Origin: Desulfobulbaceae bacterium
GTDB lineage: Bacteria; Desulfobacterota; Desulfobulbia; Desulfobulbales; Desulfocapsaceae
Length of the DNA: 64,000 nt
Direction of reading: 5' to 3'
NCBI GenBank assembly: GCA_019163335.1
Contig: JAFLKM010000002.1
Span: 1-64,000 of the forward strand
Within the stretch, counting starts at the first letter, position 1, and the number at the start of each line of letters is the position of its first letter. The notes beneath the pieces are model-generated. The model saw nothing but the letters and a program-made list of their open reading frames with translations. It did not search any database and was not told the origin of the DNA. Shown in pieces: positions 32,794-39,574 of the stretch. Both the position numbers and the translations under genes were made by a program.

Positions 32794-35208
32794 TTAAATA
32801 TCGAGAGATGTTACCTCTAAGGCATGATTCTGGATAAACTCTCTTCTTGGTTCAACCTTATCTCCCATAAGGGTGGTAAACATATCATCTGCCTGTTCGG
32901 CATCATTGATGGTTACCTGGACAAGAACCCTGTTCTCGGGATTCATCGTTGTGTCCCAAAGCTGCTCTGGGTTCATCTCTCCAAGACCTTTATAACGCTG
33001 AAGATGACTTCCTTTGAAAGTTTCACTTCGCACAGTCTCAATCATTTCTATCCAATTATCTACCTTAATACTTCTATCTTGATTAACGTTTGATTTTTTT
33101 ATTATTGTAAAACTGCTTTTTAGATAGGTATGAATAGATGAAAAAAGAGTAAGCGCTTTTCTGTATTCGAGAATAAGGGGTATTTGAGGTCCTAGATTTA
33201 CAAAAATATGGTTTTTACCTTTTATTGCGACGTTTGCTTCAAAACAAGTTGGTCGCCATCGACACGATCGAATAGGACCTATTATAAGTTCTTCACTAGA
33301 TAATTTAGTAATGAGATTTTGGACAAATGATTCATCGGTGAATTGATCAGCTGAATGAATATTATTTTCTAAAAGAAAATAAAGCATATCTTCCCATATG
33401 TTCATCCTTTCAAGGTAGGAAACAATTTTTTTGTAAATAGAAAGTTTTTTTAATATTTCCGACAAACTTTCACCACAAATATTATGTTCAATGGTTCCTT
33501 CTACTTGAAGTTCTATCATCTGACTTGCTTCTAAATAAAGATGATTGTTTAATTCTTCATCCTCTAAAAAATATTTTTCTTTTTTCCCTTTTCCTAATCT
33601 ATATAATGGTGGTTGGCCTATATAAACAAAACCACCCTCTACCAATGGCAACATTTGCCTGTAGAAAAAAGTAAGAAGAAGGGTACGAATATGAGCACCA
33701 TCTACGTCAGCATCTGTCATTATTATTACTTTATGATATCGTAACTTTTTAACATCAAACTCATCTGTTCCAATACCACAACCTAATGCACCAATAAGAT
33801 TTTTTATTTCTTCACTTCCTAATATCTGGTCAAAACGAGCCTTTTCTACGTTCATAATTTTACCACGTAAAGGAAGAATGGCTTGAATAGATCTGTCTCT
33901 TCCCTGTTTAGCTGAACCGCCTGCTGAATCGCCCTCTACAATAAATATTTCTCGTTTACTCGGATCTTTTTCCTGACATTCAGCGAGTTTTCCAGCCAGA
34001 AGTAAGCTGGTAGATCCTTTTTTCCTTGAAAGGTCACGAGCCCGCTTAGCCGCTTCTCTTGCTCGTGAAGCCTCTACAACCTTGATAAGAATTTTTTTAG
34101 CTTCCTGGGGATTTTGTTCCAAAAAAATAGTGAGTTTTTCAAAACATACTGATTCGACAATAGATTTAACCTCAGAATTTCCTAATTTTGTTTTCGTCTG
34201 TCCTTCAAATTGAGGGTCGGGTACACGAACAGAAATTACACAGGTCAAACCCTCCCTCATATCGTCCCCACTCATTTTTTCTTTTAAATTTTTAGGGATT
34301 ATATCATCAGTCGCATATCTATTTATACATTTTGTTAATGCAGCCCTAAATCCTGCCACATGGGTTCCGCCTTCTTTAGTATTAATATTATTAACAAATG
34401 AAAAAAGTCTTTCGGTGTATCCATCTACATATTGAAAAGCTATTTCAACCTGAACCATATCTTTTTCGCCTAAAATATGAATAGGTTCAGAGGTAATTGG
34501 TGTTTTTTTCCTGTTAAGATAGCTTATATAAGACTTTATTCCACCTTCCGCATAAAAGGAATCTTCTGCTCCAGATCTTTCATCTTTCAAAAAAATTTGA
34601 ATTTCTTTGTTTAGATAAGCGAGTTCTCGTAATCTATTACTCACCGTTTCATAATTAAATACTGTGGTTTCGGTGAATATTTCCGGGTCAGGGGAAAAAG
34701 TAATACGCGTTCCGGTTACATCACTTTTTCCTATTATTTCTAATTCACCTATTTTTTCTCCACAGCTATAGGATTGTTTATATATTTTTCCATTTCTTTT
34801 AATTTCTGCACTAGCCTTTATGGAAAGAGCATTAACAACAGAAACACCTACACCATGAAGTCCACCAGAAACTTTATAAGATGAATGATCAAATTTTCCA
34901 CCAGCATGAAGCGTTGTCATTACTAATTCAAGAGCAGACATTTTTTCTGTCGGATGCATATCAACAGGAATTCCTCGCCCATTATCTTCAACAGAAACAG
35001 AATTGTCTTCATGGATAACTATATAGATATGTGTGCAATACCCAGCCAAAGCTTCATCAATGCTATTATCCACTACTTCCCATATTAGATGATGCAATCC
35101 CGATTCTGAGGTATTTCCTATATACATAGACGGTCTTTTGCGTACGGCTTCAAGACCATCAAGAACCTTTATTTGTTCAGCATCGTATGATTTTTTTTCT
35201 TCTGTCAC
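32794..35208 (-). CDS. gyrB: DNA gyrase subunit B
   Basis: The ATPase subunit of gyrase, 804 residues. Motifs include the GHKL ATP site (EVVDNSIDEALAGYC, EDNGRGIPVDMHP, GLHGVGVSVVNALS), the Toprim domain (IVEGDSAGGSAKQGRD and IIMTDADVDGAHIRTLLLTF), and the C-terminal QRYKGLGEMNPEQLWDTTM. The length and the segment between Toprim and the C-terminus fit the Gram-negative form with the extra domain insertion. It starts with GTG at 35208, preceded by AAAAGGAATAAA. A hairpin lies between it and dnaN. Confidence 0.97.
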   Translation of the reverse strand: MTEEKKSYDAEQIKVLDGLEAVRKRPSMYIGNTSESGLHHLIWEVVDNSIDEALAGYCTHIYIVIHEDNSVSVEDNGRGIPVDMHPTEKMSALELVMTTLHAGGKFDHSSYKVSGGLHGVGVSVVNALSIKASAEIKRNGKIYKQSYSCGEKIGELEIIGKSDVTGTRITFSPDPEIFTETTVFNYETVSNRLRELAYLNKEIQIFLKDERSGAEDSFYAEGGIKSYISYLNRKKTPITSEPIHILGEKDMVQVEIAFQYVDGYTERLFSFVNNINTKEGGTHVAGFRAALTKCINRYATDDIIPKNLKEKMSGDDMREGLTCVISVRVPDPQFEGQTKTKLGNSEVKSIVESVCFEKLTIFLEQNPQEAKKILIKVVEASRAREAAKRARDLSRKKGSTSLLLAGKLAECQEKDPSKREIFIVEGDSAGGSAKQGRDRSIQAILPLRGKIMNVEKARFDQILGSEEIKNLIGALGCGIGTDEFDVKKLRYHKVIIMTDADVDGAHIRTLLLTFFYRQMLPLVEGGFVYIGQPPLYRLGKGKKEKYFLEDEELNNHLYLEASQMIELQVEGTIEHNICGESLSEILKKLSIYKKIVSYLERMNIWEDMLYFLLENNIHSADQFTDESFVQNLITKLSSEELIIGPIRSCRWRPTCFEANVAIKGKNHIFVNLGPQIPLILEYRKALTLFSSIHTYLKSSFTIIKKSNVNQDRSIKVDNWIEMIETVRSETFKGSHLQRYKGLGEMNPEQLWDTTMNPENRVLVQVTINDAEQADDMFTTLMGDKVEPRREFIQNHALEVTSLDI

Positions 35209-35234
35209 TTTATTCCTTTTTTCTTATTTAAAAT

Positions 35235-35271
35235 AAAAATATCCATTCATTAAATATGAATGGATATTTTT
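35235..35271 (-). terminator. Hairpin between dnaN and gyrB
   Basis: A perfect 16-bp stem (35235-35250 with 35256-35271, loop of 5) with an AT-rich core and T run on the minus strand, 24 bp after the dnaN stop and 27 bp before gyrB. It may end part of the dnaN transcript or regulate gyrB. Confidence 0.65.
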
Positions 35272-35295
35272 AATAATAACAGTGTGTTATTTTTT

Positions 35296-36426
35296 TTAAA
35301 GTTTCATTGGCATAATAATACTCAAAAATCCTTCATCAAAATCTGATTTTAAAAGACATGGGCTATTATTATAATTTATGTAAGCATCGACAGTATCACT
35401 TTCCATCACCTGTAAGGTTTCAATAAAAAAACGACAATTGAAACCAAGAACAAGAGGTTCGCCTTTATAAATTATTTCTTGCACATCTTTTGCGTTACCT
35501 ATATCAGCATTTTGAGATGATAATATCATTTTATCTTCAATAATTTCAAATTGTATGGTGTGAAAGATGTCTTCGGTAAATAAATTTATTCGCTTTAGCG
35601 ATTCTAAAAAAGGAATTCTATCAATTGTAATTTTATTCGTTAATTGAATGGCATTAATAATAGTTTTATACGGAGGAAATTCTCCTTCTTTAAGACGAAT
35701 AATCATAATTGCATTTTCGTCTTTTATTACTAATTGTTTTTCTTCAAAACTAACTTGTATGTTATCTCGATTTTCGCAGAATTTTTTAAATTCTTGGATT
35801 CCTTTTTTAGGAATAAGGGTTGTTTCGTTAAGATGAAGATTATTAATATCAGCAGCAACATCTTTTTCCATAACAGAAAGACGATGCCCATCTGATGAAA
35901 TCATTCTTACATAAGATTTATTGTTTTTATTTTCTTTTTCAAAAAGAACGCTTGTTAAAACATAATTATTTTCTTGTTCAGTTGCTATTGAGTAAATAAT
36001 TTTATCAATAATTTCTGAAAAAATATGAGCTTCAAATGATACAAATGTTTCTTTATTAAATTCAGGAAATTCAGGAAATTCAGCACTTGATATACCAGCA
36101 AGATTATAAATACTTTGTCCTGCCTGAATTTCAACCCAACTGTTTTCTTTTTCTATAATATTTATTGACGATGAACCAGATTCTCTAACTATTTCAAAAA
36201 TTTTTTTACTAGGAAGGGTTAAACTCCCAGATTCCTTTATTTCAGCTGGAAGTTTAATTTGAAGACCAATCTCAAGATCAGTTGCTGTAAGAAAAATAGC
36301 ATCTTGACCTGTTTCAATGAGAATATTAGAAAGAATAGCAAGTGTTCCTCTTTTATTTGTTATATTTTGAAGAGCATTTAATCCCTCAAAAAATACAATT
36401 TTTGAAATATTCAAATTAAGAGTCAT
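35296..36426 (-). CDS. dnaN: DNA polymerase III beta sliding clamp
   Basis: The ring-shaped processivity clamp of replication, 376 residues built of three similar domains. Recognisable segments are LNALQNITNKRGTLAILSNI with ILIETGQDAIFLTATDLEIG at the N-terminus, RMISSDGHRLSVMEKD in the centre, and the C-terminal INYNNSPCLLKSDFDEGFLSIIMPMKL in which the final MPMKL matches the conserved MPMRL end. Strongly AT-rich codon use, shared with the gyr genes. Upstream lies the AT-rich spacer with a nested palindrome; dnaA and recF are not adjacent, unlike the classic dnaA-dnaN-recF-gyrB order. Confidence 0.95.
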   Translation of the reverse strand: MTLNLNISKIVFFEGLNALQNITNKRGTLAILSNILIETGQDAIFLTATDLEIGLQIKLPAEIKESGSLTLPSKKIFEIVRESGSSSINIIEKENSWVEIQAGQSIYNLAGISSAEFPEFPEFNKETFVSFEAHIFSEIIDKIIYSIATEQENNYVLTSVLFEKENKNNKSYVRMISSDGHRLSVMEKDVAADINNLHLNETTLIPKKGIQEFKKFCENRDNIQVSFEEKQLVIKDENAIMIIRLKEGEFPPYKTIINAIQLTNKITIDRIPFLESLKRINLFTEDIFHTIQFEIIEDKMILSSQNADIGNAKDVQEIIYKGEPLVLGFNCRFFIETLQVMESDTVDAYINYNNSPCLLKSDFDEGFLSIIMPMKL

Positions 36427-36750
36427 ATAAAATAACCTTTATTGTATATATATTTATTTATTTTTATTAAAAAAGAATTTTTGTTAAATAGTTGCATAAT
36501 ATTCTGATATTCATAGAATATCAGAATCAGAATATTATGTTTATAACCTTAATTATTTTGTTTATATTTTTCTTTTAGTTAATAATTAATTGTTATAAAA
36601 AATTATTAACTAAACGTATGTTTAAAAGACATAAATTAAAAATAACATTATGATATTTCTATATTTTTTATAATAATTTATATAAATAAAAATTACAATA
36701 AGTAATAGAACAATTGTAAACTGGTCCAGTTTATTCCTTTTAAAATTTAA
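36427..36750. other. Strongly AT-rich spacer upstream of dnaN
   Basis: No coding frame on either strand. It should carry the dnaN promoter. Apart from the nested palindrome at 36495-36539 it is mostly A and T with scattered short palindromes. Consensus TTATCCACA boxes were looked for and not found, so it is not claimed as oriC. Confidence 0.5.
36495..36539. repeat. Nested palindrome upstream of dnaN
   Basis: Two overlapping inverted repeats. The inner ATTCTGATATTC (36501-36512) pairs with GAATATCAGAAT (36516-36527) around ATA. The outer CATAATATTCTGA (36495-36507) matches TCAGAATATTATG (36527-36539). The shared ATTCTGA/TCAGAAT unit allows alternative hairpins. It resembles a multi-site operator or a replication-control element. 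Confidence 0.7.
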
Positions 36751-36791
36751 AAAAAAATCCTTTTCTTTTTTTCAAAGAAAAGGATTTTTTT
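36751..36791 (-). terminator. Terminator of the minus-strand sulfur cluster
   Basis: An 18-bp perfect stem (36751-36768 with 36774-36791, core ATCCTTTTCTTT) with A/T runs on both sides, 23 bp after the stop of the last gene. It closes the tusA-dsrE unit and may also protect dnaN from read-through. Confidence 0.85.
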
Positions 36792-36814
36792 GAAATTTTA
36801 ATAAAATTAAAACA

Positions 36815-36988
36815 TTACCACCAGCAAACGGTTTTATCAGCAGCAAATATTTTATTAACCAGCACATCATAATCTGGGTTTTCAACGTTTAAATTAAATT
36901 CATCAGACTCTCGGTCTCTATTTAATATTTGAACCAGGGTTTTTACTTCGTTATTAGGCTCTGAACGATATACTTGCAGAATTTTCAT
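36815..36988 (-). CDS. 57-residue conserved-looking protein of the YTD-like sulfur cluster
   Basis: A small gene that falls below common length cut-offs. The frame reads MKILQVYRSEPNNEVKTLVQ and continues through an acidic, Asn-rich centre to a C-terminus TVCWW. An excellent AAAGGAG sits at the right distance before the ATG, and the gene begins 16 bp after the stop of the 118-residue gene upstream and ends just before the terminator. The single Cys near the end followed by two Trp is a plausible sulfur-carrying or partner-binding tail. In YTD clusters small conserved hypothetical genes accompany tusA and dsrE; this is a candidate for one of them, by position only. Function unknown. Confidence 0.8.
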   Translation of the reverse strand: MKILQVYRSEPNNEVKTLVQILNRDRESDEFNLNVENPDYDVLVNKIFAADKTVCWW

Positions 36989-37004
36989 TATATAACTCCT
37001 TTAA

Positions 37005-37361
37005 TTATTCGGCACAGGCAGGTGGTGGTTCGTTGGTTTGTTTGGGTAAACCATAAGGAATGATAAAATCTGCATCACGCATAGCTTCTCCTAATTCTTC
37101 TAAAGATATTTCAGCTATTAGTTTATCACCTTCTTCGTCTACACAATTATCAGGGGCTGGAGCACCACAAGAATATACCTGACCCTCCATATCTTTTACC
37201 CACGCAATATTTTCACTCATATAGGTAGAAAAAGGGGGGAATTCTCCATTCATAATAACAGGAAAGGCATAATGATTTTCGACCGCTAGTCCAAGGCCTG
37301 AGCGAATACCATCATTATACATACGATTTGCGATTAAAATATATACTTTTAAAGATTCCAT
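37005..37361 (-). CDS. 118-residue conserved-looking protein of the YTD-like sulfur cluster
   Basis: A small soluble protein beginning MESLKVYILIANRMYNDG, whose first strand (VYILIA) resembles the opening of DsrE-fold proteins. It contains Cys in GQVYSCGAPAPDNC and a last one in PPPACAE. AAGGAGTATATT precedes the ATG, and the gene follows the DsrE-like gene after 12 bp. It is the best candidate for the other conserved hypothetical protein that accompanies tusA, dsrE and yedE in YTD clusters. A DsrE-like fold and a role in handling sulfane sulfur are inferences; no database family is recognised by eye. Confidence 0.8.
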   Translation of the reverse strand: MESLKVYILIANRMYNDGIRSGLGLAVENHYAFPVIMNGEFPPFSTYMSENIAWVKDMEGQVYSCGAPAPDNCVDEEGDKLIAEISLEELGEAMRDADFIIPYGLPKQTNEPPPACAE

Positions 37362-37373
37362 TTAATATACTCC

Positions 37374-37706
37374 TTATAAAACAATGTACTTGCTGCATTC
37401 GTCCAGCAGAGCACCATGGAAAGCCTGAGTTCGCATTTGTTTTGCAGATAAACCAGCAGGAATATCTGCAGCAGAATCATATCCTTCGCAAGTATAACTA
37501 TCAGCACATATAGCTATATTTTCCTCGCCACAATTTTCAGCTAAAGCTTTGAAACGAGGATCTTTGGTAAGGTGAATAGATTTGAAAGTAAAGAAAATCA
37601 TTGGTTGTTTACCAGCTTTCTCGGCAGCATTGGCAATTCCTACAACATGATGCATGTTTTGCGGTGAAGTTACAAAAATCGCTATTTTATTTGGATCAGC
37701 AGACAT
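37374..37706 (-). CDS. DsrE-family protein
   Basis: A 110-residue protein of the DsrE/DsrF-like (peroxiredoxin-like) fold, cytoplasmic proteins that carry persulfide sulfur in sulfur oxidation, tRNA thiolation and related relays. It begins SADPNKIAIFVTSPQNMHHV, the typical first strand and helix, and has Cys in ENCGEENIAICADSYTCEGY, with the CxxSxxCxG-like group at the usual active-site loop, plus DECSKYIVL at the end. AAGGAGGATAAAGC precedes the ATG. It is 35 bp after tusA and before the two small proteins, so the likely partner is TusA, by analogy with TusA-DsrE sulfur transfer. Confidence 0.85.
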   Translation of the reverse strand: MSADPNKIAIFVTSPQNMHHVVGIANAAEKAGKQPMIFFTFKSIHLTKDPRFKALAENCGEENIAICADSYTCEGYDSAADIPAGLSAKQMRTQAFHGALLDECSKYIVL

Positions 37707-37741
37707 TAGCTTTATCCTCCTTAAGGGAAAAAATAAAAAAA

Positions 37742-37999
37742 TTAACCTTTTTTAACAAAAAAGCTCATATAGCCAGACTGCTCTTTCTCCCCTAAATACT
37801 CATGTCCTCCGCGAGCGCACCAACCAGGTATATCGTTTCGCGAGCCTGGATCTGTTCCATCAATCTGAAGTATTTCACCTGATTTGATTTTACCTATCTC
37901 TTTTTTTGTACGTAAAAGAGGCATTGGGCAACTTAATCCTTTAGCGTCAAGAGTAGCTGTTATCAACAATCCTTCTGGTGCAACCTTGATGTCACTCAT
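37742..37999 (-). CDS. tusA: TusA/SirA-like sulfur carrier
   Basis: An 85-residue sulfur-carrier protein. The hallmark reads LDAKGLSCPMPLLRTKKEIG, with the CPMP motif whose Cys (residue 24) carries the persulfide. The C-terminal half (EILQIDGTDPGSRNDIPGWC) is the usual IF3-like fold and supplies a second Cys. AGGAGAAAAAA precedes the ATG. It is the first gene of the minus-strand unit, downstream of a good promoter, and is divergent from the YedE-like permease, the arrangement seen in YTD clusters of sulfur-disproportionating bacteria. It probably accepts sulfur brought in by the permease. Confidence 0.9.
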   Translation of the reverse strand: MSDIKVAPEGLLITATLDAKGLSCPMPLLRTKKEIGKIKSGEILQIDGTDPGSRNDIPGWCARGGHEYLGEKEQSGYMSFFVKKG

Positions 38000-38119
38000 T
38001 TTTTTCTCCTATAAAAATAAAATAAAAAGGTATAAATAGTTTTATACCAGAAAAATACATATTTAATAAACTATATATAAAATAATACAAACCACAAATT
38101 AATCTTTTAATTTTATTTT

Positions 38120-38148
38120 GCTATACTTTAACGAGAAGTAAAAGTCAA
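38120..38148 (-). promoter_or_regulatory. Promoter of the tusA-dsrE unit
   Basis: Minus-strand TTGACT (38143-38148) and TATAGC (38120-38125) spaced by 17 bp. The -35 hexamer overlaps the left end of the palindrome at 38147-38180, so a regulator bound there would touch RNA polymerase. Confidence 0.6.
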
Positions 38149-38180
38149 GTTTAAAATGAATAACCATTCATTTTAAACTT
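38147..38180. promoter_or_regulatory. Perfect 15-bp palindrome between tusA and yedE (operator candidate)
   Basis: AAGTTTAAAATGAAT (38147-38161) and ATTCATTTTAAACTT (38166-38180) are exact reverse complements around AACC. It lies between the two divergent promoters, touching the -35 box of the tusA side. With no T run after it, an operator is more likely than a terminator. Confidence 0.7.
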
Positions 38181-38247
38181 TGTTAATAAAAGTTTGTATT
38201 TATTAATTAAAAATAAAATTTTTATGTTTAATTAATTTCTTAGATAC

Positions 38248-38276
38248 TTGACAAATGATAATTGTAGAGGTAAAAA
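38248..38276 (+). promoter_or_regulatory. Promoter of the YedE-like gene
   Basis: TTGACA (38248-38253), a 17-bp spacer and TAAAAA (38271-38276), about 54 bp before the start codon. The -35 is perfect; the -10 is weak, which fits an activated promoter. Confidence 0.5.
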
Positions 38277-38329
38277 ATTTTTTTTATCCTTAAATTATTT
38301 TAAATGTATTTTCAAAAAAGGAGGGGGGG

Positions 38330-39574
38330 ATGAGTGAAGAAAATGTAATGACAGAGAAGGTTAAGGATTTTTATAAAATAATGTGTAGATCTGAATGGAA
38401 TGCTACTGTTACTGGTGTTTTGGTGGCTTTTTTGTCTGTAATGATTATGGCCTGGTGGCGTCCTTGGGGAGCTGTGGGTGCCATAAGAAATTGGGGAGAC
38501 TGGATTATGTATGGAATAACCAGTCTTACGGGAGCTGAATCCGGCTTTTTTAGTTATTATTTAAAGGAGCCTAAATCTGTTTTTCAGGATTCCGGATCTA
38601 TCATTGGTATTGGATTTGTAACAGGTGCTTTTATTTCTGCTTGTCTGGGCAAGGATTTTGCTTTTCGAATTCCCCCTTACAGGGAAATGGTTAAAGCGAT
38701 GATAGCTGGCGTTTTAATGGGCATAGGTGCAACATTAGCGGGTGGGTGTAATGTTGGAGGTATGTACAATGCTATTGGTAATTTGGCAGCGAATGGCTTT
38801 ACCATGTGGATTGGTTTGGTAGCAGGTGTTCTTTTGGGTTTGAAATTATTATACATAGAAATGGAGTATATTACCTGGGGTGATGGTGGTTCAGCAACCA
38901 TAGAATTACCAAGTTTATTACTTTATGTACTTGGCATTGGGGCCATGGGAGGTATTTTTTGGGGAGCCTATACTTTTGCTGGAAATACTGAAGATGAATA
39001 CTTGGCAACTCTCAGTGGGGTAATCCTTATTGCAGCCGCACTGGGATATGTCATGCAGCGGGGTCGCTGGTGTATGGTACAGGGTTTTCGCGAACCACAT
39101 ATGACTGGTGATTGTACGTTGGCAAAATCTGTTGCACTTTCAATTCTTATCGTAGCTGTAGGTGCCGCAGTATTGAAGTATTCCGTTCCCCTTCGGGCGG
39201 AAGGTGTGGCCGTGCTAGATCCTGCCAATTATGTGCGTGGAACTTTTGGTTGGGGTTCTATTGTCGGTGGTTTTATTTTTGGTTTGGGCGCCATGCTCGC
39301 AGGGGGGTGTGGATCTGGAACATTATGGCGTGTGGGTGAAGGACAGGTAAAGCTGATTATGGTTGTTCCTTTTTTTGCTGTTTCTAATTCTATCATGACC
39401 TCCTGGTTTAAGGCGAACGATTTTGAGGGTCGCGGTCTCCTTGGTTCTCACGTGTATCTTCCTGATGTTATGGGATACGGTGGCACCTTGTTTTTTATCG
39501 CCGCTATTATGATGGTTTGGTATCTGGTGGTGACCTGGAACGAGGAAACGAATAAATTGATTGTACCTATGTGA
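38330..39574 (+). CDS. YedE/YeeE-type permease for sulfur compounds
   Basis: A polytopic inner-membrane protein of 414 residues with about ten helices, of the YeeE/YedE family. TsuA members import thiosulfate through conserved Cys in the membrane. Equivalent Cys are visible: GGCNVGG (Cys140), RGRWCMVQG (Cys248) and GGCGSGT (Cys327), in two similar halves. A very strong AAGGAGGGGGGG precedes the ATG, indicating high expression. It is divergent from tusA and the DsrE-like gene, which places substrate uptake next to sulfur carriers. YedE-related permeases are also found in selenium metabolism, so selenium transport is an alternative, but the TusA-DsrE context favours sulfur. Confidence 0.9.
   Translation: MSEENVMTEKVKDFYKIMCRSEWNATVTGVLVAFLSVMIMAWWRPWGAVGAIRNWGDWIMYGITSLTGAESGFFSYYLKEPKSVFQDSGSIIGIGFVTGAFISACLGKDFAFRIPPYREMVKAMIAGVLMGIGATLAGGCNVGGMYNAIGNLAANGFTMWIGLVAGVLLGLKLLYIEMEYITWGDGGSATIELPSLLLYVLGIGAMGGIFWGAYTFAGNTEDEYLATLSGVILIAAALGYVMQRGRWCMVQGFREPHMTGDCTLAKSVALSILIVAVGAAVLKYSVPLRAEGVAVLDPANYVRGTFGWGSIVGGFIFGLGAMLAGGCGSGTLWRVGEGQVKLIMVVPFFAVSNSIMTSWFKANDFEGRGLLGSHVYLPDVMGYGGTLFFIAAIMMVWYLVVTWNEETNKLIVPM

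Follow-up and report, generated by a model that had tools for sequence, protein, structure and literature searches.

The question raised by this locus is whether a cluster of yedE, tusA and dsrE genes with two small companions marks its carrier as a sulfur disproportionator or serves a more general function in sulfur metabolism. Such a YTD cluster has been defined as yedE, tusA and dsrE together with two or three conserved hypothetical genes (PMC12998232). The window, i.e. the whole 64,000-nucleotide stretch of DNA analysed here, contains a complete YTD cluster of the published type (Table 1). All five reading frames are present, with yedE divergent from tusA-dsrE-chp1-chp2, as claimed by the first-pass annotation, which also rightly described the minus-strand unit as tightly spaced (gaps of 35, 12 and 16 bp). 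It further postulated a strong terminator behind chp2. The hairpin and its T run exist, but "strong" applies to the length of the stem only, since G-C accounts for only 3 of the 18 pairs and hairpin plus T-run matches are no more numerous in the region than in shuffled sequences. In the region between tusA and yedE no Rfam element was found. This region contains a perfect inverted repeat, TTTAAAATGAAT-AACC-ATTCATTTTAAA (window 38150-38177; none expected by shuffles). The repeat was not recovered in the same region of the closest relative, a neighbouring species, and for this reason it is not claimed as an operator.

Table 1. Genes and other features of the YTD cluster in the window
Feature	Position	Strand	Properties
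yedE/yeeE-family sulfur permease	38330-39574	+	414 aa; Pfam PF04143 Sulf_transp, E 4.8e-44
tusA, sulfur carrier	37742-37999	-	85 aa, SCPMPLL; Pfam PF01206 TusA, E 2.8e-23
dsrE type II, predicted sulfur-transfer subunit	37374-37706	-	110 aa; Cys67 plus form-A cysteines 59, 73, 104
chp1, predicted DsrF-like subunit of DsrEFH type II	37005-37361	-	118 aa; form-A C-terminal tail, Cys116
chp2, predicted DsrH-like subunit of DsrEFH type II	36815-36988	-	57 aa, C-terminus TVCWW
Terminator-like hairpin 3' of chp2	36751-36791	-	18 pairs and T run
Divergent intergenic region tusA/yedE, presumed promoters of both units	38000-38329		330 bp

The assignments of TusA by its CPMP motif and of YedE as a YedE/YeeE permease were confirmed by Pfam. 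The three cysteine motifs previously noticed in the membrane part of YedE (C140 GGC, C248 RGRWC, C327 GGC) are invariant among 46 homologues, 98 % of which also retain C19. In TusA, Cys24 of the CPMP motif occurs in 100 % of the homologues and Cys61 in 94-100 %. YedE does not belong to the TsuA/YeeE equivalogs, as its scores were 100 bits with a cut-off of 400 and 98 bits with a cut-off of 645; its match to the YedE/FdhT model and the score obtained with the YeeD model were likewise far below the cut-offs. Support for the orthology of yedE and tusA with the genes of YTD carriers comes from trees that include named carriers such as Electronema and Thermosulfurimonas.

Chp1 was matched in 31 of the 38 nearest genomes and in 67 of the 93 genomes of the family (42 of the 54 good ones). 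Almost all of 80 named loci, among them those of Desulfobulbus and Desulfogranum species, have the five genes in the same order, and the exceptions are mostly cut by contig ends. Most Desulfobulbales among these loci have a divergent yedE, most deeper lineages a co-directional one. The small genes are kept in the same order in relatives, with identities of about 40-98 %, and such recurrence of the set goes far beyond what chance would give. The proteins of Electronema aureum are 84 % (DsrE), 75 % (Chp1), 80 % (Chp2), 84 % (TusA) and 62 % (YedE) identical to those of the window. The proposals that the window contains a YTD cluster and that its small proteins have homologues in other YTD clusters therefore withstood comparison, the same five-gene set being present in nearly every relative examined. 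The cluster is ordinary for its group; it is a complete example of a known system, in a host that suits it.

In most Desulfobulbales examined the cluster adjoins dnaN-gyrB (window 32794-39574; L121-L173). The dnaA gene of the host is located on another contig (G000:C37:20910) and hence apart from dnaN. In one genome (G006) a gene named by eye as a serine hydrolase (beta-lactamase-like) lies between chp2 and dnaN (L154 4713-5852), a gene absent at this place in the window. Four genomes of the host genus lack Chp1 (G001, G002, G004 and G012); G004 is rated 95 % complete, and its cluster may be lost or unassembled.

Sequence searches alone disclose little about the trio dsrE-chp1-chp2. Chp1 and Chp2 matched no family in Pfam or NCBIfam, DsrE gave only a sub-threshold DrsE_2 match in Pfam (E 0.044), nothing scored above the cut-off with the known DsrE, DsrF and DsrH families (DsrEFH type I) in either collection, and no relative of DsrE or Chp1 was found among PDB sequences. 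The two small proteins had been regarded as prime unknown components, a view superseded by two papers of 2026 in which the dsrE-like gene, chp1 and chp2 are identified as structural counterparts of DsrE, DsrF and DsrH and the small proteins are assigned as the DsrF- and DsrH-like subunits of DsrEFH type II (PMC13047784; PMC13293266). Recombinant DsrEFH-II of E. aureum is stable at a 1:1:1 ratio and in vitro takes sulfur from TusA on Cys67 of DsrE and hands it to DsrC (PMC13293266). The same study detected the trio in 985 genomes from 20 phyla, and 73.9 % of these genomes also contain reductive dsrAB (PMC13293266).

The window proteins fit this description. DsrE has cysteines at positions 59, 67, 73 and 104, and each of the 127 sequences compared has Cys67. 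Structure prediction, which had been suggested for both small proteins, was carried out for Chp1 and yielded an AlphaFold2 model with a mean pLDDT of 88.6 when based on 118 sequences (an earlier alignment of 12 rows gave a useless model with a pLDDT of 38.4). The best structural matches of the model all belong to the DsrE/F family (YchN, Z 9.5; TusBCD, Z 8.0; DsrEFH 2hy5_A, Z 7.8), and the first unrelated chain follows at Z 6.3, below the family range of 7.8-9.5; by this model Chp1 has a DsrE/F fold. Chp2 is predicted to be DsrH-like by analogy with its E. aureum orthologue and the fold published for cable bacteria (PMC13047784). Its length of 57 residues in nearly all clusters examined indicates a complete gene rather than a fragment. 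The three adjacent genes dsrE-F-H stand beside tusA and yedE and co-occur in the host with DsrC and with a dsrAB that is probably of the reductive type, judged by the presence of dsrD. Based on Cys67, the identity to the E. aureum proteins and the fold of Chp1, the window is filed as DsrEFH type II within a YTD cluster.

In all likelihood, the cluster is a sulfur uptake and relay unit in which import by YedE is followed by TusA, DsrEFH-II and DsrC and then by DsrAB, AprAB and Sat operating oxidatively. YedE would bring reduced sulfur, in the form of thiosulfate, polysulfide or sulfane sulfur, across the inner membrane. TusA would take the sulfur as a persulfide on Cys24 and pass it to Cys67 of DsrE within a DsrE-Chp1-Chp2 complex, which would load DsrC. 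The DsrC persulfide would then feed DsrAB and AprAB/Sat in the oxidative direction, which in the host may amount to sulfur oxidation or to the oxidative branch of disproportionation. For the window proteins, formation of the heterotrimer and transfer from TusA via DsrE Cys67 to DsrC are predicted by analogy with the in vitro results on the E. aureum orthologues; the residues and partners of the relay are present and conserved. This explanation is based on a gene set and gene order as published, the identity to E. aureum including Cys67, the Chp1 fold, the partners encoded by the host, and the abundance data from Desulfolithobacter, where the levels of all five YTD proteins are raised during thiosulfate disproportionation (PMC9751629). 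Counting against it, thiosulfate gave no persulfidation of TusA, DsrEFH-II or DsrC of E. aureum (PMC13293266), so that the substrate is not fixed, and the cluster occurs in reported non-disproportionators and is absent from many disproportionators. The authors of the in vitro study proposed a general role in sulfur oxidation and rejected the cluster as a marker of disproportionation (PMC13293266).

The near relatives of the host are metagenome-assembled genomes (MAGs) named Desulfocapsa, Desulfocapsaceae or Desulfobulbaceae, from which we infer that it is an uncultured member of the Desulfocapsaceae that groups with Desulfocapsa. A cable bacterium, at first suggested by the shared cysteines, was discarded as the host in view of the named loci, which point to Desulfocapsa-type MAGs. 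Its genome encodes dsrA, dsrB and dsrD, the last of which suggests a reductive-type dsrAB, aprB and aprA, behind which lie HdrA-like genes as in qmo, and one DsrC. A MOLY-like trio (L180 4470-8373, on G000:C2) consists of an Fe-S subunit, a TAT molybdopterin subunit related to PhsA and a TorD-like chaperone, for which a 65 % identical match was found in a genome of genus g6 (G058). The A and B subunits and the chaperone are adjacent, with no membrane anchor gene between them, which is the composition of MOLY. The MOLY cluster, a candidate for S0 disproportionation, is present in 90 % of S0 disproportionators (PMC12998232). Kinship to Desulfocapsa, the genes dsrABD, aprBA and dsrC, and the MOLY-like trio taken together, and not the YTD cluster alone, make it likely that the host disproportionates sulfur. 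The first-pass annotation had suggested this ability from the YTD cluster; the ability is plausible, but its deduction from the cluster is not supported.

That the YTD cluster is a dedicated sulfur-disproportionation machine, the presence of which predicts that metabolism, would agree with its occurrence in every elemental-sulfur disproportionator surveyed (PMC12998232), with the response of its proteins to thiosulfate disproportionation (PMC9751629) and with the additional MOLY-like trio of the host. However, the cluster is found in strains for which the evidence speaks against disproportionation of any kind (PMC12998232) and in many sulfate reducers unable to disproportionate, only 25 of 63 cultured disproportionators carry it (published surveys; PMC13293266), and among the loci compared here it is also present in Desulfobulbus and Desulfogranum species. 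Such a dedicated function is unlikely, and confinement of the cluster to disproportionators is contradicted by the surveys, which list non-disproportionating carriers (PMC12998232, PMC13293266); by itself the cluster is not a sufficient marker (PMC12998232). Still less probable is a role mainly in assimilation or thiol modification, with thiosulfate import and breakdown as by YeeE-YeeD and a trio acting like TusBCD in tRNA thiolation: YedE does belong to the YeeE/YedE family, the Chp1 fold is also near TusBCD and the cluster encodes the only TusA-family protein of the host, but the matches to the YeeE/TsuA and YeeD models are far below the cut-offs, no loading of the E. aureum proteins by thiosulfate was observed, reductive dsrAB accompanies the trio in most genomes (PMC13293266), and expression is high in dissimilatory sulfur metabolism (PMC9751629, PMC13047784).

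Alignments revealed two forms of the trio, DsrE and Chp1 of the window's genus being distinct from their counterparts in most other members of the family. Form A is found in the window, Electronema, Electrothrix, Desulfobulbus, Desulfogranum and others; its DsrE contains C59, C73 and C104 in 97-100 % of the sequences and its Chp1 has a tail with Cys116. Form B, found in most other Desulfocapsaceae and in G028, which we take to be Desulfurivibrio alkaliphilus, lacks these cysteines and often has C56 and C106 instead. The forms are about 40-45 % identical to each other in DsrE and Chp1 and probably correspond to subtypes of PMC13293266. Judged by the extra cysteines of form A, the two may differ in sulfur load or partner.

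Both forms occupy one place, flanked on one side by gyrB-dnaN and on the other by the genes found after yedE in the window, and both occur within the Desulfocapsaceae, even within one genus, which holds D. sulfexigens-like genomes. Comparison of a form-A locus (L162) with a form-B locus (L159) of the same genus yielded identities of 91 % for GyrB, 84 % for DnaN, 90 % for TusA, 84 % for YedE and 79 % for the gene after next; the values for the trio were 44 % (DsrE), 41 % (Chp1) and 75 % (Chp2), and Chp2 thus differs less between the forms than DsrE and Chp1. In trees of DsrE, Chp1 and Chp2, forms A and B are split on one well supported branch. The yedE-tusA tree joins A and B members of the host family, with a support of 97 when long rows are left out, and genus g6 is a single clade on this tree (99). 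A constraint uniting the form-B members of the family on yedE-tusA was rejected (AU p 8.9e-05), as was forcing the g6 grouping on the trio (AU p 3e-79), p-values that are indicative because the groups were named after the first trees had been seen. We consider it probable that the dsrEFH-II trio is an exchangeable cassette, with forms A and B swapped at the same gyrB-dnaN locus and yedE-tusA and the flanks inherited vertically. Form A of the family nests among Desulfobulbaceae, the contrary being rejected only at p 0.029; the exchange may have run in either direction, and loss of alternative ancestral copies is a possible alternative.

Paralogy of the whole cluster was considered and rejected as the cause of the two forms. 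A second cluster does exist elsewhere in some genomes, but its yedE-tusA branches separately and it lies at another site, so that paralogy leaves form B at gyrB-dnaN unexplained. This second cluster, a co-directional yedE-tusA-dsrE-chp1-chp2 of another lineage with a tusA of 80 aa (L120 3101-5650, L155, L157), is found alongside the form-A cluster in three Desulfocapsaceae genomes (G006, G043, G044). In Thermosulfurimonas dismutans (L107) and one SulCav MAG (L111), form-A-like trios are accompanied by a yedE that forms a very long branch of its own, which again points to recombination between permease and trio.

In the papers on YTD and DsrEFH-II consulted here no report of trio exchange between forms was found, and no evidence of lateral transfer was seen in the published survey (PMC12998232). 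Cassette exchange, if upheld, bears on this reading and on the published view that the trio arose in a Paleoarchean ancestor. Of the points raised here it alone deserves re-examination; the interpretation given in the first-pass annotation is half right and superseded by the 2026 papers. Close relatives with form A and form B provide natural pairs for asking what the extra cysteines do. The window also places an uncultured Desulfocapsa-like lineage among the carriers of the putative oxidative sulfur relay, and the inference that YTD means disproportionation is corrected.

Among the known systems, the YTD cluster of sulfur-metabolising Desulfobacterota (PMC12998232, PMC9751629, PMC8780430) has the same composition, with all five genes in one block and yedE divergent as in most Desulfobulbales examined; the exact species of the window is uncultured. 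The window shares with DsrEFH type II of E. aureum (PMC13293266) the form of the trio, Cys67, three further cysteines in DsrE and a DsrH of 57 aa, but its host is not a cable bacterium and has a yedE with no more than 62 % identity to that of E. aureum. YeeE-YeeD (TsuA-TsuB) thiosulfate uptake likewise pairs a permease of this family with an adjoining TusA-like protein, whereas the window proteins score far below the curated cut-offs and are supplemented by the DsrEFH-II trio. DsrEFH type I of Allochromatium vinosum (PDB 2HY5) and TusBCD (2D1P) resemble the window trio in subunit fold, the TusA partner and one catalytic Cys in DsrE; the window trio differs in being without detectable sequence similarity to them, in the small size of its DsrH-like subunit and in accompanying a dsr set of the reductive type.
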